DNA from: Ceratodon purpureus
Taxonomy: Eukaryota; Streptophyta; Bryopsida; Pseudoditrichales; Ditrichaceae
Assembly: GCA_014871385.1 (NCBI GenBank)
Contig: CM026424.1
Coordinates: forward strand, 19,857,321-19,921,320
Direction of reading: 5' to 3'
Length of the DNA: 64,000 nucleotides
Positions 3,913-31,216 of the stretch are shown here, piece by piece (positions within the stretch are counted from its first letter, which is position 1; every line of letters begins with the position of its first letter). The position numbers were made by a program, and so were the translations under genes. Under the pieces are notes generated by a model, which was not told the DNA's origin, searched no databases, and saw nothing but the letters and a program-made list of their open reading frames with translations.

Positions 3913-3968
3913 CGCCACCCCAGGGGCTCGAACCCTGGACCACAAGGTTAAGAGCCTTGCGCTCTACC
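3913..3968 (-). tRNA. trnK-CUU: tRNA-Lys(CUU), 3' part, split by a LINE
   Basis: Read on the minus strand, this gives the end of the D arm, the complete anticodon arm (stem CAAGG/CCTTG, loop CTCTTAA, anticodon CTT), the variable loop, a T arm with stem CAGGG/CCCTG and loop TTCGAGC, and the acceptor strand GGGTGGC with discriminator G. The missing 5' part lies 8.3 kb away at 12316-12350. The two acceptor strands, GCCGTCC and GGGTGGC, pair along all seven positions with two G-U pairs, which shows that they once formed one gene. The split gene should not give a functional tRNA. Confidence 0.92.
3951..3968 (-). repeat. Target-site duplication, copy at the LINE 3' end
   Basis: Minus-strand GGTAGAGCGCAAGGCTCT, 18 bp, is identical to 12316-12333. 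It covers the D-arm 3' side and the anticodon stem, and ends inside the anticodon loop. Confidence 0.93.
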
Positions 3969-4254
3969 GTGAAGACCCCACCGGGGTTTAAAAAGCATGC
4001 GCAAAACGCGCTGATACAAACGGGCGAACCCGGGCCAGGCCAACAGGCCAGAGAGGGACAGACAGCCACCGGCCCGACAACAGCAAACAGGGCAGCAGCA
4101 AAGGAAAACAAAGTAACGAAGACCCAAGCCTAACCCGAGGAAACCGCAGACACAACTAAACGAAGCGCAGGTTCAGACCGCAGACCGCCAAGTTCGGAGG
4201 AGATCGGGACGGAGCGCAGCGCCAAGCAAAGAAACCTGCAGGAACACAAGCAAA
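3969..4254 (-). other. LINE 3' UTR with terminal hairpin and no poly(A)
   Basis: The sequence between the ORF2 stop and the target-site duplication is GC-rich and non-coding. The last bases form a 5-bp stem with a 3-base loop at 3975-3987. In some LINE families such a hairpin is recognised by the reverse transcriptase; here that is inference. Confidence 0.7.
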
Positions 4255-7200
4255 CTACCGCGGATGACGACGCCCCAGATTGAAGTACCGTCGGCCTTCC
4301 GCCATCCACATGTTGAAGTTGTCCCCGTCGAGATGCTGAGCAGTCGAAGCGTACACCTCCAACGCAGTGAGGCCGATGAAGTTCGGGTTGGCGCGGGCAC
4401 GGCGAAGGATATCCGGGAGGTTTGCGGCCGTGTAAGGAGTGTCGTCCAGAGCCTCGCGGATACGCGTTTCCGCCCGGAGGCGTCGAGACCGGGAAGCTGG
4501 AGAGCTGGGGGGCGAGAGAGCAGCGAGCTCTTGACGACGTTCCAACTCTATATCAGCAAGTAAGGTGTCGATCTCCTCTTGTAAATGAGAGTCAATCAGT
4601 CGGGCTGAAGCCGGACTAACCTCTCTTCTGACGTCCTGTATTCTCTTTGTCACAGTAGTGAGAGAGAAGAGTTCTTCAAGACGGATATGGCGACTTGTGG
4701 CATCCGAGTAGGGTTCAGGGGCAGGATCTGGGACCCCAATCGGAGGCGGAGGAGTATGGGAGGGTGAGTCCTCCGGAGTAGGAAGGTCAGGGCGGTCCAA
4801 GTCCGCCTGAACCTCAGCGAATAACCCTGTAATGGCCGCATCCAGCACATCGCTGTCCACTGAGAGGATAGAATCCCTATCAGTGTTGCAGGACTGGGTG
4901 GGGATTTGCTGTAGAAACCGAGGGGTATGGGTGGCCAGAGCCTGTGGAAGATAAACCGCGGGAGGTATTATTTTCCAACAGGGTTGGTCACCCATGGTGG
5001 CAAAGATTCCATCTCGCGTCCATAGCTGTTCGAAGTCAGCAAGTAGTTTAGCTTGTCGAACCTCGCTTCGTTTGTGTCTGTGGATGGACCTCCATACCTC
5101 CATGCCGACATGGATACAGTCCTTCCAGGCGAAGAATAGGGCTTTTCCAAGACTGAACTCAATGCCGTTCAACTCCTGCTGGCATTTTTGAACCCAAAGC
5201 TGCCACAGGAGTGAAGCCCGCAAGATTTCCCATGGAGTGTTAGGATTAACCATAGCGTCACCTGCTATCCAGGGATTAGCATCTTCGATGGTGAGATGTC
5301 CTGGAGGATGGCAAAGGCCATACAAAAGGTCTCTCCAAGTTGAGTAAGCAGCTGGGAGTGAAGCAGTACTGCGCAAGCTCCTGAAATGCTCCCACGCAGC
5401 CGAGAGGGTGGGGCAAGATATGAGTGCGTGCTCGGTATCTTCTGTGGGATGTCCACAAAGTTTACATTGCCCCTCCCAACCCGCTTTTGCACGCCAGTCA
5501 CCTATCGGAAGACCGCCAGCCAGTGCGAGCCAATTCATGGCCGCAATTTTGCGGTGCTTCCAGGGGTGCCATATGCGCCGAAATAGTTGCTTGATCTGTA
5601 TTGTGGTGTAGCCCCTGAGTCGAAGGTCGCGAACCGCTCGCAGATTGTTTTGAATACGCCTCAAGCCATGTTTATAACCCTGCTTTGTTTCATAGTTGAA
5701 GAAGGTGGATTCAGGTAGCACTCCTATCTTAGCCCAGTTCCAGTCGATAGGATCCCAGTCCAAGGCAATGATAGGTGCGTTACCATACATCCATACCGAC
5801 TCTTCTTCAAGTGGAGCGCGCGTCGGGTTATATTCTACAACTTGCTGTTTCAGTCCAACCGTGAGCAGTACCCGAACCTGTTCTAAGCGAAGGTTGGGGA
5901 TCGGCCGGGGGTGAGAATTATCCCAGCGAAGCACTTCGGAGGGTAACCGGAAGTACCTCGTGCCCAAAAGACGAGGGGCAGTCTCTTGAATGTGGTAGAC
6001 GACATGGATTGGACCCGTCGTGTCTGCTGTGACCCATTCCCCGATAGTGAGCGAGAGGGGCAGTGCAGGAACTCGAGGGATACCTGCTAGCAGGTAGTCT
6101 CGTTGTCGGTGCATAATGCGAGAGTGCGTCTGTATTCGGAGCTGTTCCTCCGATTTCCAGTTGCGCTCCTCTCCATCCCAAATGTCCTGAATAGTGGCCG
6201 TGTTGTGTGTTGCCCAGGTACAGAAGGGGGAGTCTTTCTCTGCGCCGTATAAGAGCCCTGCTGCATCCTTGAAGAGAGGGTTGCCGAAAAGCTGCTGTCT
6301 GAGAAATTCCTTGGGATGTGATGGAGGTCGCTGCACTAAGCCAGTACGAGTGTTGGTAAAAGCTTGGAAGGTGGCGCGCCAAAGCGGTGAGGCTTGGGTT
6401 TGAGCCTGTGAGGCATTCATCAACCAGTGAATGGACGCCGGCCAGCGCTTTTGATTCGTCATCTTGATGAGGGATATGTGTCGCCGGATGAACGTCTTCC
6501 AGGGAGCATAACCCGGTTTCAAAGCCCGCACTAGAATCTTTGTAAGTAAAGCCGAGGCTTGCATTGTAGGGTCGATGATCTTGACTCCACCCTCCACCAC
6601 CGGTTGGATTGCATTCTCCCAGCTTATTTTCGCCCTCGTTTTCTGTCCTGGAGCAGCTCCCCAGATAAAGTTGCGTACTAATGCTCGTGTTTGTCGAAAG
6701 ACTGCAGCCGTTAGGTTGGCGCACGAGCACAGGTACCAAATCGAAGCGAGAACCACTTGGTTCGCAACCATGATCCTGCCAGCGAGAGACAAGGTATGTG
6801 CGCTCCAGCTGGTTAGGGCTTTGGTAATGTTGCTGATGACCTTAGTGTTAAGTTCTTCTGTGGATAATTGGTATCCAATAGGGAAACCTAAATAGGTCGC
6901 AGCCTGTCCCGGATTTAACCAGCGAATGCCCGGGTCCTCTGGCCAGAGCCATGAGCGAGGTGTGAGTGAAGCTCTGATACAGACCGTTTTCCCCCAGTTC
7001 ATCTTGGCACCGGATGCCTTACAAAAGAGGTTAAGGATCTGCATAGCGGTGTTGAGATTCTCCGCTTCACCCACTAGATATAGAGAGGTGTCGTCTGCAA
7101 ACATAGCGTTTGTGGACGTCTCTCCGTTTGGAAGCCTAAGTCCTTGCAGGTTGCGTGTTGGATCGTCCAACATATGTCCTAGGACATCTGCAATCAGAAG

Positions 7201-9270
7201 GTAGAGATATGGCGCCAAGGGGCATCCTTGGCGCACAGATCTCTGAAGGTTGAAGGCCTTCCCTGGCTTGCCATTGAGAAGAACGGCTGATGCAGCTTCT
7301 GAATACAAGGCCATCGTTAGGTTGGTCCAGTGACTGGAAAAACCCATATGAGTCATGGTGTCCTTAAGAAAACTCCAGCTAACACGGTCGTACGCCTTTT
7401 CAAAGTCAAGGAGTAAGAGTGTTAATTTCTGCTTGCTCGTAGTTGCCCAATCCAGCGCCTCGTTTGCCATAATGATGTTGTCAAAAATACTTCTACCTTT
7501 CACAAAACCGGTCTGAGTCGGTTTTATCCATAAAGGTAGAAAAGTAAGCATTCGGCCAGCCATCAATTTGGCTAGAATTTTATATGTTGTGCCCAGTAAG
7601 GATATGGGACGGTAATTCGGGATAAGTGTTTTATCTCCCCCTTTTGGTAGCAAGCTAATCAGGCTTGTGTTTAGCTCCTTGCAGAGAACGTAAGTCGTGA
7701 AGACTTCAGTAATCCAGGCAAGGAGATCGTCTTGGATGTCGGGGAGAGCAGCCTTAAAGAATTCGATAGGAATTCCGTCTATCCCAGCTGCTTTGCCATT
7801 CGGGAGGTCTTGGACCGCCTTCTGGACTTCGAGGAGAGTGGGTGGAGCGTCAAGGATGGTATTCTGTTCGGTTGAGACGCACCTAGGTACGCTGCGAAAA
7901 CATTCATCCCGTGCCGTGCGCTGCTCGGTCCCCTCCGGTTCTTGGCTATAGAGCCGTTGATAGAAACTGTCCACATGGTCTTGCATGTCCTCATGTTGAG
8001 TGAGAATACTGCCATCTGCTGAAAGTTCTCGTATGACAATGGGCTTATGCTGCCCCGAATAGTAATCAAAGAAGTCTTTAGTGCACCTGTCCCCCACCCG
8101 GGTCCAGGTGGCCATAATCTTGTCATACTTGCGTTCTATGCGTCCTTGACGGACGCATTGAAGGGCAGCTTGTGCGGAATTTAATTGGTCCCTTGCAGCC
8201 TGAGAGTCCCAGTTAGATTGTAGATGTAATTCTGCCTCTGCAAGTGACGAGAACTGCTCCTGGAATGTGTCTTCACGGACTTTCTTCCGGGTTTTAGCCA
8301 CGGAGTCACAACACGTTCGGACTGCTTCCAGAGCTTTACTAACTTTGGTGTTCCAGCTATCTGCAGAGTGACGGAGAAGTGCTGATTTCCAAGCGGAGAT
8401 CATCGCAAGACGAGCCTCCTCATCTTGAAGAAGGTGACGGTGAAACTTAGGAGGAGAATGTATCCGGGTTTCGAGGTTCCGGATACGCAGAAAGACGGGC
8501 GCATGATCTGAGAGATGAGCCGAAGTTGGAAGAATGCCGGTGAGTCCTCCGAGGTCCCGAATCCCAGGTGAGGTATAGAACTTATCTATCCTCGAAATTA
8601 TGTTTTCTGGGGGGTCCCTCCGATTATCCCAGGTATACTTCTTGCCTTTAGTTTTTCGGTAATCATCTGAAAGATATACATCTTGCAGCGAGTGTTGAAG
8701 AACCAAGGCATGCCATGCGTCGATTTCTCTTCTGCCCCGTCCTGTTGAATCTGCTCCTCCTAGTTTGTCCGTTAAATTCTCAATCATATTAAAATCTCCG
8801 CCAAAAATCCATTGAGCTTCGGGCAGTGGGAAATTCCGGATGCGGTTCCAGAGTCGAGATCTGGAGCCCGTCTTATTGTAACCATAAATATTAACTATGC
8901 CAACTCTGCGTGTGGGCGTCCATTGGAAGACCACATACTGAGCTCGGCCGGGTGCTATGATGCCATGCTCAATGATCAGATCACCGAGCTTAGGCGAGAT
9001 GATGATGCCTGTACCGCCCTTATAGCCATCTGTAGAAGCCGAGTAGTGAGCCGCATTCCACAGGATGGGTCCATGCATAAAATGTAATTGACGGGTTTTA
9101 GAAAGGCAATCTTCGTGGACGAACTTGTGTTCCTGTAACAGGACAACGTCGGGCTTGGGGTTGAGGTGTTGGAGTAAATCCGCTATGTCTCGCCTCTTCC
9201 TCGTCCCTGCAGTGTCTCGCCCAAGGCACTGCACGTTGTAAGTGACCAGGGCTAGCTGGTCACTGGGCAT
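4255..9270 (-). CDS. LINE ORF2: AP endonuclease and reverse transcriptase, 1671 aa
   Basis: Residues about 1-270 are an exonuclease/endonuclease/phosphatase domain with YNVQ, LLQEHK, GGDFNM and LSDHAP, so the Asn, Glu, Asp and His of the active site are visible. Reverse transcriptase motifs follow: GKAAGIDGIP at about 495, YRPISLL, DFEKAYDRV at about 623, RQGCPLAP, and the catalytic FADD at about 724. Near 1269 a zf-RVT zinc site (CKLCG...H...C) appears, as in plant LINEs. The last roughly 350 residues are a Pro/Glu-rich and then helical extension that I do not recognise, and no RNase H domain was identified. The frame has no stop or frameshift, so the enzyme could be active. Its ATG overlaps the end of the ORF1 frame by 19 bases, which suggests reinitiation for translation. 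Confidence 0.95.
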   Translation of the reverse strand: MPSDQLALVTYNVQCLGRDTAGTRKRRDIADLLQHLNPKPDVVLLQEHKFVHEDCLSKTRQLHFMHGPILWNAAHYSASTDGYKGGTGIIISPKLGDLIIEHGIIAPGRAQYVVFQWTPTRRVGIVNIYGYNKTGSRSRLWNRIRNFPLPEAQWIFGGDFNMIENLTDKLGGADSTGRGRREIDAWHALVLQHSLQDVYLSDDYRKTKGKKYTWDNRRDPPENIISRIDKFYTSPGIRDLGGLTGILPTSAHLSDHAPVFLRIRNLETRIHSPPKFHRHLLQDEEARLAMISAWKSALLRHSADSWNTKVSKALEAVRTCCDSVAKTRKKVREDTFQEQFSSLAEAELHLQSNWDSQAARDQLNSAQAALQCVRQGRIERKYDKIMATWTRVGDRCTKDFFDYYSGQHKPIVIRELSADGSILTQHEDMQDHVDSFYQRLYSQEPEGTEQRTARDECFRSVPRCVSTEQNTILDAPPTLLEVQKAVQDLPNGKAAGIDGIPIEFFKAALPDIQDDLLAWITEVFTTYVLCKELNTSLISLLPKGGDKTLIPNYRPISLLGTTYKILAKLMAGRMLTFLPLWIKPTQTGFVKGRSIFDNIIMANEALDWATTSKQKLTLLLLDFEKAYDRVSWSFLKDTMTHMGFSSHWTNLTMALYSEAASAVLLNGKPGKAFNLQRSVRQGCPLAPYLYLLIADVLGHMLDDPTRNLQGLRLPNGETSTNAMFADDTSLYLVGEAENLNTAMQILNLFCKASGAKMNWGKTVCIRASLTPRSWLWPEDPGIRWLNPGQAATYLGFPIGYQLSTEELNTKVISNITKALTSWSAHTLSLAGRIMVANQVVLASIWYLCSCANLTAAVFRQTRALVRNFIWGAAPGQKTRAKISWENAIQPVVEGGVKIIDPTMQASALLTKILVRALKPGYAPWKTFIRRHISLIKMTNQKRWPASIHWLMNASQAQTQASPLWRATFQAFTNTRTGLVQRPPSHPKEFLRQQLFGNPLFKDAAGLLYGAEKDSPFCTWATHNTATIQDIWDGEERNWKSEEQLRIQTHSRIMHRQRDYLLAGIPRVPALPLSLTIGEWVTADTTGPIHVVYHIQETAPRLLGTRYFRLPSEVLRWDNSHPRPIPNLRLEQVRVLLTVGLKQQVVEYNPTRAPLEEESVWMYGNAPIIALDWDPIDWNWAKIGVLPESTFFNYETKQGYKHGLRRIQNNLRAVRDLRLRGYTTIQIKQLFRRIWHPWKHRKIAAMNWLALAGGLPIGDWRAKAGWEGQCKLCGHPTEDTEHALISCPTLSAAWEHFRSLRSTASLPAAYSTWRDLLYGLCHPPGHLTIEDANPWIAGDAMVNPNTPWEILRASLLWQLWVQKCQQELNGIEFSLGKALFFAWKDCIHVGMEVWRSIHRHKRSEVRQAKLLADFEQLWTRDGIFATMGDQPCWKIIPPAVYLPQALATHTPRFLQQIPTQSCNTDRDSILSVDSDVLDAAITGLFAEVQADLDRPDLPTPEDSPSHTPPPPIGVPDPAPEPYSDATSRHIRLEELFSLTTVTKRIQDVRREVSPASARLIDSHLQEEIDTLLADIELERRQELAALSPPSSPASRSRRLRAETRIREALDDTPYTAANLPDILRRARANPNFIGLTALEVYASTAQHLDGDNFNMWMAEGRRYFNLGRRHPR

Positions 9271-9704
9271 ATGGAGTTGGAAATGGGGGTTCTCCCCCCC
9301 CCCTGAGTCAATCTAGCTGACTCTGCACTCGCTTGCTCAAGGAGCCCGCCCCAATCATCGTCATCGGTAGCAGGTTCGATAGGGTCTTCATCGGCCGAAG
9401 ATTCCCCCAGTGGGACGAATCCTGTTGGTGGATCATTCGGATCGACTTGCCATGGCAATTCGTTCTCCTTGGGGAGACGAAGAGGAGGGTTAGGTCCCAT
9501 GAAGTAAACTTTTTCCTCAGGTTCCAGAACCCAGTGATTCAACCGTACGCTGGCTTGAATTGTATACGGAAACCGATCGTGCAGGGTTTCAGGTATAGCA
9601 GTCCATTGGTAGTTGCTCGGGCTGCGCATGGTGAAGACGGATTTGTCGTAACGGATTAGGACCAGCCAATAGTTGAGTGCTTCCCACTCATTGATCCTAT
9701 TCAT
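9252..9704 (-). pseudogene. LINE ORF1, 3' part (about 149 aa) beyond the inserted element
   Basis: This frame ends 19 bases inside ORF2 and begins at the edge of the TIR insertion at 9702-10152. Its codon phase is exactly the one that continues ORF1 from codon 672 if the insertion is removed. The sequence is acidic near the end (a DEDP... and DDDDW stretch) and contains no zinc motif. The ATG at 9704 is formed by the insertion end itself, so it is probably not a native start. Confidence 0.7.
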
Positions 9705-10152
9705 TAGGGGAAAAATCAGGTCTCCAACGGGCCTTGTAAGACAGCCCGGATTAGGTGAGCTTCCTGCCCGCTGACACTTCTCTTCGAAATCTCATTGGTC
9801 GATATCCTGCCCGCTGACAACAAAATTCGCCTCGCTGACAGCAGGATTCGCTGACAGGAGGATCCGCTGACAACAGGATCCGGTACTGTCCAATGGGGTG
9901 ATAGCAGTGGGCACACGGTCGGTGACAGTGTCATTACTGCTTATATTGTCCAATGGGGGGGTGGGGTGGGGTGGGGTGGGGAAGGGAAGCGATTGGCTGG
10001 ACCCCCCAAATGCCAACTGCTGTCACTGCTGGCAGCATTTGGCGACCTGCTGGCACAGTTGGTGCCAGCAGGTAAAGTGCACGGGCATGCCCAAAACTTT
10101 GGCACGGAAAGCATGGAAAAGGCCCGTTGGAGACCCCAAACTGCTCCTAATG
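9702..10152. mobile_element. 451-bp TIR element inserted in LINE ORF1
   Basis: The ends are inverted repeats. The inner 17 bp (GGTCTCCAACGGGCCTT at 9719-9735, complement at 10119-10135) are perfect, and the outer part (CATTAGG at each end) is imperfect. The interior has no ORF. It holds short repeats of a CGCTGACAACAGGATCCG type (about 9820-9880), a GGTGG-type G-rich run at about 9954-9982 and repeats of a CTGCTGGCA word. It looks like a non-autonomous DNA transposon. No target-site duplication is visible, which is odd for the class. Confidence 0.75.
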
Positions 10153-12168
10153 CCAACTGTATATCCATTGGGCATCTGCCCAGCGTTGAAGCTGATTCTC
10201 ATGCTGTCGTTTGAGTTTAATGTGGTCCCTAAGATGCCACATGGTCTGGTTCAGCATGAGTGTCTGTGCTTCAAGAGTCGTCCATTGCCTTGCAGATGTT
10301 TCGTGAGAGAGCCAAAAACTAACAATGGGGCGTTTCCTTCCCGATGTTTTGTTTTGCAGCGTCTCATACAGATGAGGTTCCTTAGCCCCTCGGAAGATGA
10401 CCGGGATAACAACAGCTGAGGTACGTGTGAACGATGCTATCCAATTCACTTGGAGGGCCTGCCACAAAGCTTCTCGGATGCGGATGGTTCTGTACCCGTG
10501 CGGTCCCGGCGGTGTAATTTGGATAGGAGCTGCAATGGGAGTGTTCGGCACTGGTTGCCAGACTAATCCTTCTTGAGAGGTCTGTGTTGCAGGCCGAATG
10601 GTGGACGGAGAAGGATCAGAGACTGGAGATGAGGACGTCCTCCGGGCAGTGGGGGGCGTTGCTTTCTTCTTGGTTTTCTCCGCAATTCTTTCTTCGGCCG
10701 GTCGTCTCGTAAGAGGGCAGCGGGACACCAGGTGATCGAAGGAGCGACAGCGCTTGCACTGTGTGGGAAACCCACTATACTCCAAAGGATACTCCAGGGT
10801 ACCCTCTGCCCCAATTTTAGGTATAATAATGGTTTTAGGCAGCTTGTTTAATGAATCTGAAAGTATCCGAACCCTAGGTCCGGAAAGTTTTGAGATATAA
10901 GATTCTGATGTATCTATCGCTAGGACTTCCCCCAGGGGACTAAGGGCTTCGGAAAGGAATGCCTTAGTCTTCAGAGGTTGTGGAAGGCCTACGATTTGCG
11001 CCCATAGAGCTATTTTGTGTGTTTCCTGTTGAGGGGCTTCAGGGTCGAAGTATGGGGACCACGCTGAGAACGTGATGATCTGACCATCACAAGTGTATGT
11101 GCGATCCGTCAATGTAAGAGTCCTGCCCTCCTCTTGGGAAAATTGAACTTCAAAAAAGTTGCTGCTGCGCATTGAAAGAGAAAGGAACGACCTGTGTAAT
11201 CTAGTGCTGGCCCATTTCCTTAATCTTCTTGGGCCAGGGCATTTGCCTTTTACCTGACCCAAAACCATGAGATCTGCTGTTTTTGCAAATGTAGTCTCCA
11301 GTTCCGCTAAGAGCTGGGCGCTAAGATTAACCCTGAGAGGGGCTGGAGAATCATCTGCTTCTGCTGCTCCTGTGTCATCTAAGGGTTTCTCCGGGAGCGG
11401 AATTTCAGGCTGCTTCAATGCTGGGGGCTGAGGATAAAATTGTGGAACAAACCTAATGAAATCGGGGGAAACTCGAGATAACATAATCCGGAGGTCCTCC
11501 TCTTCCGAGCGGGCCTGTTTAAGTCCTAGCTCAGCATGCGCTTGAATAAAAGCGGCAGTCCTGTCTCGAGTGAGTTGAACTTGTTGCTGAAGGAGTAGGA
11601 AAATGTCGAGGTCGGCGGAGTCCCAGACTGTCGCCAGGTTGCGCCGAGGTGAGCCCTCCAGCGCCGTGACATTCTGCGCCGCAACGCCAATGTCTAGCGG
11701 GACGTCTCCCGCCTGTCTTGATTCCGGGGAATAAGCATGAAGCACCGAATTGCAATGGGAAGGTACGGGTATTACCTGGGACGGTGCTTCATGCGGAGGT
11801 TGAGTTTCCTCTGGGAGACGGAGAAGGTCCTCTGGCGAAGCGCTGTTCTTCTCCTCTCGGAACGCCGTCGCGGCTGTCAACGTCTGTCCTCTAAGTTGGC
11901 CTGAAGCCGAAAACGTTGACGAACCTGAAGCGGCTAGCAGCACTTGGCTGCGAGTGCGACTCCGTGTCGAATACGGGGCCTGGTACTCCTGTGAATTTTG
12001 CGAATCTCCGCTACAATCTGATGGCCCGGCTCCAGTCTCAAGTGCAAGCATTTTGCCCTTGAGTTTCTGGGCTTTGGCCCGGCCAGCTCCTCCTTCCGGT
12101 GCCATATGGAGTCCAAATGGGACGGGAATTCGTGCAACCTGTGCTCCGAGAGATGCAGGTTGCGCCAC
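10147..12168 (-). pseudogene. LINE ORF1 (gag-like), 5' part, cut by the insertion
   Basis: The 673-codon frame encodes a nucleic-acid-binding gag-like protein. Residues about 275-445 match the DUF4283 type of plant LINE ORF1 proteins (RLRKWASTRL, FFEVQF, W..IVGLP). A CCHC knuckle, CKRCRSFDHLVSRC (C-x2-C-x4-H-x4-C), follows at about residue 474. After it comes a Ser/Pro/Arg-rich tail and a WW-type segment. The frame stops at a TAG created by the first bases of the 451-bp insertion. The protein normally coats LINE RNA; this copy lacks its last roughly 149 residues. Confidence 0.85.
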
Positions 12169-12254
12169 TGGCGATTGCGGGAGTAAACTAAAGAATGTCG
12201 ATAAGAAAACTGGTTGCCTAAAGATTCGGATCTGAGAAAAGAGAGAAGAATGTT

Positions 12255-12279
12255 GCGGCTCCGCGAATTGCGGAGCCGC
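12255..12279 (-). other. Perfect hairpin at the LINE 5' end
   Basis: GCGGCTCCGC, five loop bases, then GCGGAGCCGC: a 10-bp perfect GC stem just inside the 5' end of the element. It may be a structure of the 5' UTR RNA. Confidence 0.85.
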
Positions 12280-12285
12280 CCCCCC

Positions 12286-12315
12286 AGAGCCTTGCCAGAG
12301 CCTTGCGCTCTACCC
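12286..12315 (-). repeat. Extra partial copies of the tRNA target at the LINE 5' junction
   Basis: On the plus strand, AGAGCCTTG (12286-12294) and a whole 18-bp copy (12297-12314) precede the true target-site duplication at 12316-12333. The copies are separated by CC and C. They are further copies of the tRNA anticodon-arm sequence. Confidence 0.9.
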
Positions 12316-12350
12316 AGAGCCTTGCGCTCTACCAACTGAGCTAGGACGGC
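12316..12350 (-). tRNA. trnK-CUU: tRNA-Lys(CUU), 5' part, split by a LINE
   Basis: Minus strand: acceptor GCCGTCC, TA, then the D arm GCTC-AGTTGGTA-GAGC and the anticodon stem CAAGG up to CTCT of the loop. A box A match (TAGCTCAGTTGG) is intact. The rest of the tRNA is at 3913-3950. See that entry for the pairing evidence. Confidence 0.92.
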
Positions 12351-18736: not shown

Positions 18737-20365
18737 TCAAAAGCCAAGCTGAAGATCGAGCTTCACACTTGAATCGGTCCGGTTCTGGAGAAGAGTCATT
18801 GTGCTTTGCAATGGAACTCCTTTCTTCGGAGGGTGGGTCATGAATTGCAAAGTTCTCACTTCGTCACTTACACGCACTGCCGGAAATTTCGTCAGTTTGG
18901 AGCCCCTGGTGCTCTTTCCAGTAGCTGAATAGTTAATGATATCAGATCGTCTTTGCGTTGTACTAGAGGAAATATTTCTCATAGTATTCTTGAAACGAGA
19001 TGTTGCAGACTTTGGTGACAAATTTGATACCTCCGCTCCTCTCAGTTCGTTATTGAGTGGGCATGTGAAGTTGGTTTTCGCTTTGGCACCTCGAAGTGCT
19101 CTTGCAGCTGGAGTGCCAGACAATAGAAATTAGTACATATGTATGTTGGAACTAGAATAGCTTTTGCAAGTAGTAGATCACTTCAAAGAAAACCTAGTGT
19201 AGCACATGAGAAAGCTTTGGCAATTTCATCATGCTCAGTACTGGTTTCATTTGTTGCACTCACCACTGTCATAAGCCCGGGCAGCATCTTCAGCCGTGTC
19301 GAAAGTGCCCAACCAGTGTCGACATCTTCCGATCCGGTCACGAATCTCGGCAGACCACCGACCCCATGGCCGCTTCCTCACACCTCTGTAAGATCGACCT
19401 CCGGGTAGTGCAGTCCCGACAGCTTTATCAAGTCTAATTGCTGCATTCCCTTTGGTCACTTGATTCGGAACCCTCTGAGTACGGGACCTTGATGACTTCT
19501 CCACCCGTGGTACGATAGTGAGAATGTTGTCAGGTGTAGGTAAACTGAAACTATTGATTGTTGATACATAAACACGAGGATGAGAACATTGGACTGTCCC
19601 TGACAAGCTAAGCATGCTCAAGTTCTCAAGCTGTGAGTCCTGATGATTTATCTGCAGATTCTGGTGGTGCATCTCTCGGTAGCTGTCGAGGAATGAGCCC
19701 GGAGAAGTACTACGATCATGTACAGAAACAAAATTTCGATGAGCTGCAGCTTCGAAGCTTTGAGGGTTCCCGTACAAGGTGCTCTGCCCCACGACCGCCG
19801 CAATGCCATCGAGATCTTGCACGTCCACACAAGAGCTCTTGGGTGAATCATCGTAGTCCACAGCCTCAACTAAACGCGCAAGGGATGGAAGCCTATCATC
19901 TCTACTATTCTCAGCTGCAGAGTCACCGTATTCGGCGAGGAAGAAGCTAGGGTCCAGCTCATAGTGATTTTCCCAGTAGAATTGATCATCAGCTGATAAT
20001 CGTCCGTTGTAATGGACGGTGACTTTCTCCACCGAAGAGACGATGGAGTTGCCAGCAGATGACTCCACAATGGGCGAGAGATCGCATACATCGCACAGAT
20101 GGTGCAATGCAGGCCCTAAGCACCGCAGACAAGTGTTGGGCCAGCCTCGTCCATCTAAACAAGTCGGCTCAGCGCTGCTATGCAACTTTTCCCTCTTCAG
20201 GGACCCGTAAATCTCAGATGTACTTGCGTCATGCCATTTACGCTTGACAAGCAGCTGGGTGTCACACAACACTGCATCCAGCATAGCCATAAGTGAAGTC
20301 CCAAGGCCTACAACGTCCACTTGATTATCAGAATCTTTGTAGCTGAAGGGGTTACTAAGTTCCAT
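18737..20365 (-). CDS. AP2/ERF-family transcription factor with C-terminal EAR motif
   Basis: There are two exons: 19264-20365 and 18737-19107. The 156-bp intron starts GTGAGTGC and ends CTCCAG. The product is 490 aa. The single AP2/ERF domain lies at residues about 326-382 ([28 protein letters not shown], then [14 protein letters not shown] from exon 2), so it binds GCC-box-like DNA and is nuclear. The protein ends with KLDLQLGF, an LxLxL EAR motif, which in plant ERFs recruits TOPLESS-type co-repressors; a repressor role is inferred. The 325-residue N-terminus is not recognised, though it has a Cys-rich patch (CLRCLG...CDVCDL) at about 80-95. The intron splits the AP2 domain, whereas most ERF genes have no intron there. 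The start ATG at 20365 is the first in the frame. Confidence 0.93.
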
Positions 20366-29153: not shown

Positions 29154-29615
29154 CTTCTCTCCCCGAATTCACAAAATCGCAAGCTCCCCAAACCACCACC
29201 GGCCTGCTGAAGCCCTGGAGCCCGCCTCTCGAGGCCCCATCAACGACAACCAACAACGTGGCTCCCGGCCCCGCATGCACGACGCCGACGTTCCTTCCAC
29301 CCCAGGTTCCAACTGCCAATATGCTCGGGACATCACCAAATGTGGGACCTTTGAGACTACGACTCTGTGACGTCGGTGATGAGCTCGCATCACTGCTCGG
29401 TGTTCATGTTTGCCTCGGACTCAGTGTGTTGTTCTAGATGGAATGTAGGCCTACTTCGGAGTGAGGCCGGCGTGTTCAACGAGTTTGTCATGGTTTTTGC
29501 AATTTGGGGAGGGAAACTGGAGATTTCTTGCTTCACAGCATACACGGGCTTTGCATGTGTGTGAGTGGTTTTGTTTTAAAAAAATTTGTATGACAAGGAG
29601 AGAAAATGAATATTC

Positions 29616-29686
29616 TGCGCAGCCGGGGAATCGAACCCCGGTCAGTACCGTGGGAGGGTACTATGATACCACTACACCAGCTGCGC
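29616..29686 (-). tRNA. trnG-CCC: tRNA-Gly(CCC)
   Basis: A 71-base cloverleaf on the minus strand: acceptor GCGCAGC/GCTGCGC, D arm with GTGTAGTGGTATCAT, anticodon stem GTACC/GGTAC with loop CTCCCAC (anticodon CCC), and T arm CGGGG/CCCCG with loop TTCGATT. The discriminator is A. There is no intron and no encoded CCA. It lies 463 bp upstream of the WAT1-related start. Plus-strand open frames across it are artefacts. Confidence 0.96.
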
Positions 29687-31216
29687 ATGCTCAAGGGAAG
29701 GGCATTCAATGACCAATCTCCGAGTATTCAGGGGATGTTGATGTCTACCTGGGGGTTTAAATTTTAATACTATTTTATTTAGAGATTTGGGTGCAAAGGT
29801 GGAGGTACCTCTTCTGTATTATCTAAAGACTACAAGAAAGTCATAAAAATGAAAATGACTCGCATGTGTTAGCATTTGAAAATGGAATTCAATTTTCATG
29901 ATTTTACAATTTTTGGTGTTGAAATGAATATTTTATGAATTGTTGAAGTTACATGTGGAAGAGGCATGAGTGCGGAAAGCAGGAACATCTAAAGTGGAAA
30001 TGATAATTTCATGCATACAATGGTCAATAATCAAATTTCAAGGTTGTAGTATAGATAGATTTTGTTCTATTACAACTATTTTAGGTTGAATAGTAGGAAC
30101 TACTTTTAGTGGACCAGTCAGAAGGAGTAACTTATCCCTGAGAATATATGCAATGTGTTTGGTGCTTCATCTTGGAGTTGATTTGGAGTACGATGGTAAA
30201 TTATAACTTGTGGAGGTTGATGACAAACATTCTTCTGATTGTACTTCCACAAGAGAACATTTCACGCGCTTTTTGACAGAAGTAATTATGATATTATGAG
30301 GACTTGAGAACCTGAGTCAGGTTTGGCGAAGAGCAAGGACACAAAAGTTCACGTACCTGATGGTGTGGATTCGGAAAGGTACGTGGATGTTGTGTAAACG
30401 GTGTTCAATTTTTGATAATAGAGTTATTTGTAAAGTCCGTCAAAACTTGAGTTTTTGACCTGTAATTTGGAAAGGACCGGATCGGCATGATCTTATTATA
30501 GACCAAAAATAGAATACTGGATAGATTGAAATTTTTATTCATAAAAATTTGGAGGGAGGGAGAAGAATTGGATAGAGGGGTGGGAACGTGAGGAGGGGGA
30601 GGAATGGTACTAGCTGTGGTCCATGAAAAAAGGAGGACAAAAGATTGGATGCCTTTACAAATAACTCAAGTGTTGCCAGAAAGTTTGGTACAAGATGACT
30701 GATCCGATGGCAGTTTCTGCCTGTAGGTACACTGTTGTACTGTATGATGCTTGTAATGTGTGGGATTTTTGACTCCGGATGGGGTTTGAAAGGCAAAGCA
30801 TTGAGAGCAGTTCTTTGCTGAATGAGCTTCAGGTGTGTGAAGGGGACGGACATAGGATATCATGAAGGATTTAGCGGGTAGATATGCTATGCATGAATGA
30901 TGATTTTTTTTATTACTTTTAAGTTGTAATTAAGTGCATTTCATGTTACAATTTCTGAATACCTCGCTCATTCTAGCAGTACAAACTTCAAAGAGTTCTG
31001 TACAACACTGTGTACCGTATTAAACATGAGAAAAGTAAATGGCCGGCTCAGCTAACGGCACCACACTTCTTACACTCTGTGTCACCTGGTAGAACATTCT
31101 TATAATGCAATGATATCTGTGCCCGATCTACAGTCTTTCTTACTGAAACTGAAGCGGGGGAAAAATAAAGTTGTATGGTTCTTCGGTTTTTTTGATGTAA
31201 TTCATAAATATCGCTC
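29687..31216. other. No gene recognised
   Basis: AT-rich intergenic DNA. 30540-30620 is a purine-rich stretch (GGAGGGAGGGAGAAG, GAGGAGGGGGAGG). The last few hundred bases probably include the 3' UTR of the DHRS12-like gene. Confidence 0.5.

Follow-up and report, generated by a model that had tools for sequence, protein, structure and literature searches.

A plant L1-type LINE in a tRNA-Lys gene of the moss Ceratodon purpureus, probably from a clade specialized for tRNA genes

The window analyzed here is a stretch of 64,000 nucleotides from the genome of the moss Ceratodon purpureus (contig CM026424.1, positions 19,857,321 to 19,921,320 of the forward strand). Direct reading reveals a long interspersed nuclear element (LINE) that splits a tRNA-Lys(CUU) gene, running from 12350 to 3913 on the minus strand. 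Judged from sequence, the element is very probably a plant L1-type LINE of a clade that is specialized for tRNA genes and, at least once, for a 7SL RNA gene. All copies of its own subfamily, named Lys/Ile after its targets, are located at one base of tRNA genes (8/8). A preliminary description had proposed a LINE family specific for tRNA genes instead of a chance hit, and this proposal is supported. The specificity covers several tRNA species and not Lys alone, and it is weaker in the sister and outer families.

Both halves of one tRNA-Lys(CUU) flank the element in the window. When the flanks are joined and one target-site duplication (TSD) is deleted, ARAGORN calls a tRNA-Lys(ctt); over the 3′ half, every base agrees with intact tRNA-Lys genes (56/56). 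All seven pairs of the acceptor stem form, two of them as G.U (by eye). The TSD GGTAGAGCGCAAGGCTCT is perfect, with 18/18 bases identical between 12333–12316 and 3968–3951. Element and tRNA are both encoded on the minus strand, and the same relative orientation is found in the other cases read. The flanking tRNA halves, the seven acceptor pairs, the perfect duplication, and the common orientation in the window had been listed in the preliminary description, as had the open second open reading frame (ORF2), and each was found again. The junction had been placed in the anticodon arm, which is not the case: the 3′ junction lies in the D-loop/A box (T17|G18), and it is the TSD that extends from there into the anticodon.

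The window's own assembly (362.5 Mb) was searched with the last 302 bp of the element, a search that the preliminary description had suggested together with a reading of the 3′ flanks. Six places match, and in 6/6 the 3′ flank is a tRNA gene with its junction at one and the same base, T17|G18. The target is Lys-CUU in L001, L003, L004, L005, and L006 and Ile-AAU in L002 (L numbers are our handles for individual places and copies). The 56 bases of the tRNA-Lys 3′ half are present with no mismatch in L001, L003, L005, L006, and L105; the flank of L004 shows seven mismatches in an ungapped comparison and represents a decayed Lys-CUU gene. The Rfam scores of the tRNA 3′ halves of L005 (28.5 bits) and L004 (22.0 bits) are to be read against a cut-off of 29 bits that is set for whole tRNAs. 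Two further copies come from a genome search with the ORF2 protein, in which 28 of 1479 candidate places were scored: L011, which ends at L105, lies in Lys-CUU, and L024, which ends at L035 of the same contig, lies in Lys-UUU. They complete the eight copies. L010 also lies in Lys-CUU; it was dropped from the tree described below as too short a fragment.

TSDs measure 18 bp in L007 and L008, 15 bp in L009 and L020, 16 bp in L014 and L019, 19 bp in L035, 13 bp in L013, and 20 bp in L016. Rejoining the flanks of these nine elements restores tRNA genes recognized by ARAGORN in seven (Lys-CUU twice, Ile twice, Lys-UUU once, and Ser-GCU twice). Independent copies, flanked by TSDs, thus share one base of entry into a repeated gene, as characterizes a site-specific LINE. 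The repeated nature of the target is evident from the tRNA-Lys genes themselves: of 103 candidate places, the 40 that were scored are all intact and identical, many of them in tandem arrays. With at least 40 identical intact copies available, the target is cheap for the host. An intact tRNA-Lys of the same unit is located 856 bp beyond the insertion of L008 and carries the leader that is seen 5′ of this insertion. Tandem arrays of tRNA-Lys(CUU) are found on C5 (about 18.19–18.23 Mb) and C8 (about 2.95–3.01 Mb), with periods of 856 bp, the unit herein also containing a tRNA-Ser(AGA), and of 1725 bp; the LINE copies L008, L011, and L010 lie in or beside such arrays. Insertion into tRNA-derived short interspersed nuclear elements was considered for the Lys family and is ruled out by the whole tRNA genes obtained on rejoining and by the tandem intact neighbors.

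An ORF2 tree was calculated from 27 rows, all from this genome and without L010. It contains one clade of 14 rows with a support of 100/100 that unites the Lys/Ile subfamily, a Ser-GCU subfamily (L013 and L014), L016 to L018, and an Ile/Cys subfamily (L019 and L023). Ten 3′ ends of this clade are readable, some of them assigned to their elements by proximity; nine lie in tRNA genes (L007, L008, L009, L011, L024, L013, L014, L019, and L023), and one, that of L016, is unclear. The base of entry is fixed per subfamily: before G18 in Lys/Ile and Ser and around G10 in Cys/Ile/Asn. The Ile/Cys subfamily herein enters before GCTCAG, at nucleotide 10, and intact tRNA-Cys genes adjoin L023. To the other clade of the tree belong L020, which has a 7SL RNA gene directly at its 3′ end (RF01855, 128.9 bits from the junction), and L026, which lies in tRNA-Pro (Rfam 36.2 bits; ARAGORN Pro-tgg). 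Altogether, the sister families target Ser, Cys, Ile, Asn, Pro, and Glu tRNAs and a 7SL RNA gene; the assignments to Asn, Glu, and Ala, and to Val in L085, were made by eye. The cut tRNA itself is recognized at the junction by Rfam or ARAGORN in L035, L019, L023, L046, L111, L108/L109, and L099.

Several observations weigh against a specialization of the whole clade. The 3′ end is unreadable in 4/14 rows of the inner clade (L012, L015, L017, and L018). Downstream of L017 and L018, the assembly consists of N, and their very long open frames carry no meaning; the 3′ ends of L012 and L015, like those of L029 and L030, were looked for and not found. L016 abuts sequence with a B-box core in which ARAGORN calls no tRNA; on rejoining, it is one of the two cases missed by ARAGORN, the other being the 7SL case L020. 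The 3′ ends were mostly located by a hairpin motif, so that ends lacking it would escape, and every copy comes from one assembly. Searches with the 3′ ends of other subfamilies return mixed flanks. The Ser query finds 4/7 places in tRNA (three Ser-GCU and, by eye, one decayed tRNA-Val) and three that are not tRNA. With the Cys query, 5/12 places have an Rfam tRNA of at least 29 bits, two of which are one duplicated site (L108/L109); three more are tRNA-like by eye (L113, L114, and L116), giving about 8/12, and four are not tRNA. The Pro query yields 3/17 places in tRNA-Pro (L066 by eye) and 14 elsewhere. The 7SL query matches 40 places, 24 of which extend to the 3′ end; among the 21 ends read, there are one 7SL, one tRNA-Glu (38 bits), and one end (L086) about 38 bp upstream of a tRNA-Val (56 bits), and the other 18 have no Rfam family at the junction, several having B-box-like motifs. 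Six of these 18 have a common flank and may be one longer repeat. Places with a common flank do not count as independent sites (L079/L080, L083/L084, L108/L109, L091–L093, L097/L098/L103, and, in part, L068/L077).

These mixed flanks also demonstrate that the search method does not return tRNA genes by itself. Chance insertion, or a generic liking for GC-rich or tRNA-derived repeats, would fit the outer-group copies, which often lie in non-tRNA sequence; as an account of the family, it is hardly credible given the single base used by the inner copies, the whole tRNA genes on rejoining, the intact neighboring copy, and a B-box core frequency of 3.7% in random stretches of 120 nt from the window. 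For the Lys/Ile subfamily, the eight copies in tRNA genes refute it. Because of the looser targeting in the sister and outer groups, strict specificity is confined to the Lys/Ile subfamily.

A different source of specificity would be a protein contact with the RNA polymerase III (Pol III) machinery at the gene, a mode proposed for TRE5-A of Dictyostelium and for Ty3 of yeast; the endonuclease would then set the exact base only secondarily. Transcription by Pol III is common to tRNA, 7SL, and several of the flanks bearing a B-box, and two outer-group copies are located upstream of tRNAs, L086 at the distance given above and L048 at about 60 bp. By analogy, such a contact might contribute, but it is unlikely to be the main determinant, since the junction within the gene is precise to one base and this base differs from subfamily to subfamily, both of which indicate recognition of sequence. 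Furthermore, 11/14 non-tRNA sites of the Pro query (L067–L080) start with GGTC, as does the tRNA-Pro target; this GGTC may be part of the element or of the site.

Some arrangements are described here in their own right. The tRNA genes downstream of L048 (tRNA-Asp) and L086 (tRNA-Val) are both complete, and the positions of these two outer-group copies recall dictyostelid TRE5. At a distance of some 200 bp from the end of the outer-group copy L021, there is a series of matches to C/D small nucleolar RNAs (L044, 44–399), of which snoZ159 scores 61.9 bits, above its cut-off, and two others score below theirs. In L113 and L114, a 3′ end is followed by a short tRNA start and then by what looks, by eye, like the 5′ end of another element; one tRNA gene may have received successive insertions.

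The features of the window copy are summarized in Table 1. Its ORF2 combines an APE-type (apurinic endonuclease-type) endonuclease (Exo_endo_phos, PF03372, 2.9e-13) with a reverse transcriptase (RVT_1, PF00078, 8.9e-32), a combination expected of a plant L1-type LINE, and contains a zf-RVT domain (PF13966, 1.4e-9). Among proteins of solved structure, human LINE-1 ORF2p is the closest (2.1e-48). The endonuclease at the N terminus of ORF2 is APE-type, which places the element outside the restriction-like-endonuclease (RLE-type)/NeSL group. ORF1 matches DUF4283 (PF14111, 2.1e-12) and, below the cut-off, a zinc knuckle (E 0.03). An ORF1 with DUF4283 and zinc knuckle together with an ORF2 with zf-RVT is what we take to be the plant L1 pattern. 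By these domains, on which the class placement rests while the tree covers this genome only, the copy is assigned as a full-length plant L1-type LINE. As the preliminary description had stated, it is full length; it is not intact, because an insert of ~449 bp, absent from all four relatives compared (L008, L009, L011, and L024), splits ORF1.

Table 1. Features of the tRNA-Lys insertion in window coordinates
Feature	Positions	Strand	Basis
tRNA-Lys(CUU) target, 5′ part (nt 1–35)	12316..12350	-	direct reading; ARAGORN on joined flanks
5′ TSD GGTAGAGCGCAAGGCTCT	12316..12333	-	identical to 3951–3968
Two extra partial target copies at the element 5′ end: GG+GTAGAGCGCAAGGCTCT (12315–12297), GG+CAAGGCTCT (12296–12286)	12286..12315	-	direct reading
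5′-terminal hairpin GCGGCTCCGC-AATTC-GCGGAGCCGC	12255..12279	-	fold -21.9 kcal/mol, z -5.8
ORF1, N-terminal part: DUF4283 and weak zinc-knuckle match; 673-aa frame, start position provisional	10147..12168	-	ORF list and Pfam
Insert resembling a miniature inverted-repeat transposable element, ~449 bp, 34-nt inverted ends (imperfect, 79% complementary), interrupting ORF1	9701..10149	-	comparison with relatives
ORF1, C-terminal part	9252..9704	-	ORF list and comparison with relatives
ORF2, 1671 aa: APE-type endonuclease aa 9–256, reverse transcriptase aa 545–796, zf-RVT aa 1228–1293	4255..9270	-	ORF list and Pfam
3′ tail: short hairpins ending ACCCC-GGT-GGGGT (3987–3975), then CTTCAC	3969..4060	-	reading, folding, tail alignment
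3′ TSD GGTAGAGCGCAAGGCTCT	3951..3968	-	direct reading; joined-flank analysis
tRNA-Lys(CUU) target, 3′ part (nt 18–73)	3913..3968	-	direct reading; ARAGORN on joined flanks; 56-base comparison

Both ends of the element are marked by hairpins. The 5′ hairpin is present, often after a G-run, at 8/10 of the 5′ junctions seen, with identical letters in L037, L043, and L063 and as variants in L057–L060; neither L056 (element L019) nor L062 (element L020) shows it, and the 5′ end of L026 was not found within the stretch examined. A known ribozyme at the 5′ end was considered and rejected, as an Rfam scan of the window at gathering thresholds gave tRNA-Gly only. The 3′ ends lack poly(A), and copies end in short hairpins instead. 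Thirteen tails were aligned, selected by their final motif CCCGG(T/G)GGG, whose presence there hence proves nothing. Upstream of this motif, there are small stems with a sequence that varies by subfamily (GCGC/GCGC and GGC/GCC types); two tails folded in full gave structures no stronger than those of shuffled sequence (z -1.1 and -0.8).

Between TSD and 5′ hairpin, the window copy contains scraps of 17 and 9 nt of the target again, each after GG, which are missing from the preliminary description, and comparable scraps are found in L009, L013, and L014. L009 sits in a tRNA-Ile gene, but its scrap GTCAAGGCTCTGG contains the end of the tRNA-Lys target, and its nearest relative in the tree is L008, located in tRNA-Lys. 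The scrap must thus have been imported from a tRNA-Lys donor and is a fossil of a change of target. The scraps might also arise anew with each insertion, by the reverse transcriptase jumping onto the 18-nt top-strand overhang, and not be carried in the RNA. This would explain why the window scraps have exactly the sequence of that overhang, each preceded by GG, and is conceivable as a general origin, if rather doubtful, since the tRNA-Lys scrap of L009 cannot derive from its present tRNA-Ile target. The scrap GTGTGCCTGGGGGG, common to L013 and L014, both in tRNA-Ser, is compatible with either origin. The 5′ scraps are thus inherited with the element RNA at least in part and would record earlier target genes, and carry-over and template jumping may both act. 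Upstream of L014, three successive tRNA-Ser(GCU) 5′ halves are found (L058, positions 726, 965, and 1038), each of which includes the 5′ end of the tRNA itself and runs on into differing sequence; they may be co-transcripts that start at the tRNA or result from repeated insertions.

LINEs integrate by target-primed reverse transcription. A course of integration can be proposed from the fixed junction base, the orientation shared with the tRNA in the cases read, the TSDs of 13–20 bp, the hairpin ends, and the carried-in scrap. At the A box, the ORF2 endonuclease would nick the bottom strand and so create a primer with the end ...ACC-3′ (...GAGC in the second subfamily), from which the reverse transcriptase would copy the element RNA starting at its hairpin tail. 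A second nick 13–20 nt downstream, toward the anticodon arm, would create the top-strand overhang, and the end of the cDNA, often with a scrap of the upstream target, would join it, perhaps via base pairing of the scrap. We tentatively suggest a broader scenario, which we consider possible without favoring it: plant L1 LINEs may have radiated on Pol III genes, shifting among tRNA species and to 7SL, with an endonuclease that kept a short A-box motif and an RNA whose 5′ end still holds part of the previous target, a feature that would aid attachment of the cDNA and record changes of target.

Two neighboring features of the window are mentioned for completeness. An intact tRNA-Gly(CCC) at 29615–29687 is the sole whole tRNA reported in the window by ARAGORN and Rfam, and an ORF at 19247–20365 encodes an AP2/ERF-like C terminus (by eye only).

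If the reading as a tRNA-gene-specific L1-type LINE is true, precise integration into tRNA genes by an APE-type L1 relative provides a new model for the gain of site specificity by L1-like endonucleases. The looser sister families of the same genome represent a comparison set, and the 5′ scraps allow target switching to be traced copy by copy. Because tRNA genes are many and redundant, the enzyme is of interest as a mild integration tool. For tRNA annotation, caution is advised, as split or decayed tRNA genes can be LINE insertion sites.

LINEs specific for tRNA genes are already known in animals and protists. In line with the preliminary description, no plant LINE with this habit was found among the open-access papers listed by the searches, which leaves Repbase and closed journals outside their scope. 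Elements of the Tx1 clade are APE-type members of the L1 group that acquired site specificity, a likeness by description only; we know of no tRNA-gene target among them. A second group includes NeSL-1_TV, whose suffix TV denotes Trichomonas as host. According to PMC4640811, NeSL-1_TV (tRNA-Pro), LIN15_SM (tRNA-Arg), and LIN25_SM (tRNA-Glu), some of them planarian, are NeSL-related retrotransposons without long terminal repeats and, like the moss element, specific for individual tRNA genes. They belong to restriction-like-endonuclease lineages, whereas the moss element has an APE endonuclease, a DUF4283 ORF1, and zf-RVT. PMC4640811 also names target-specific elements of the Tx1 clade. Dada DNA transposons insert within tRNA genes at nucleotides 8–13 (A box) or near the anticodon, as stated in PMC8869645. 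They thus share both of these target regions with the moss element, and their related families likewise occupy different tRNAs; being Class II DNA transposons, they resemble the moss element by convergent targets only. The dictyostelid elements TRE5, TRE3, NLTR-A, and NLTR-B are APE-type, listed as L1, and targeted to tRNA genes (PMC5911963 and PMC5006619), as is the moss element. They land outside the tRNA gene, 2–6, 40–54, or 39–64 bp upstream or 40–150 bp downstream of it (same sources), whereas the moss element enters at one base inside, T17|G18.

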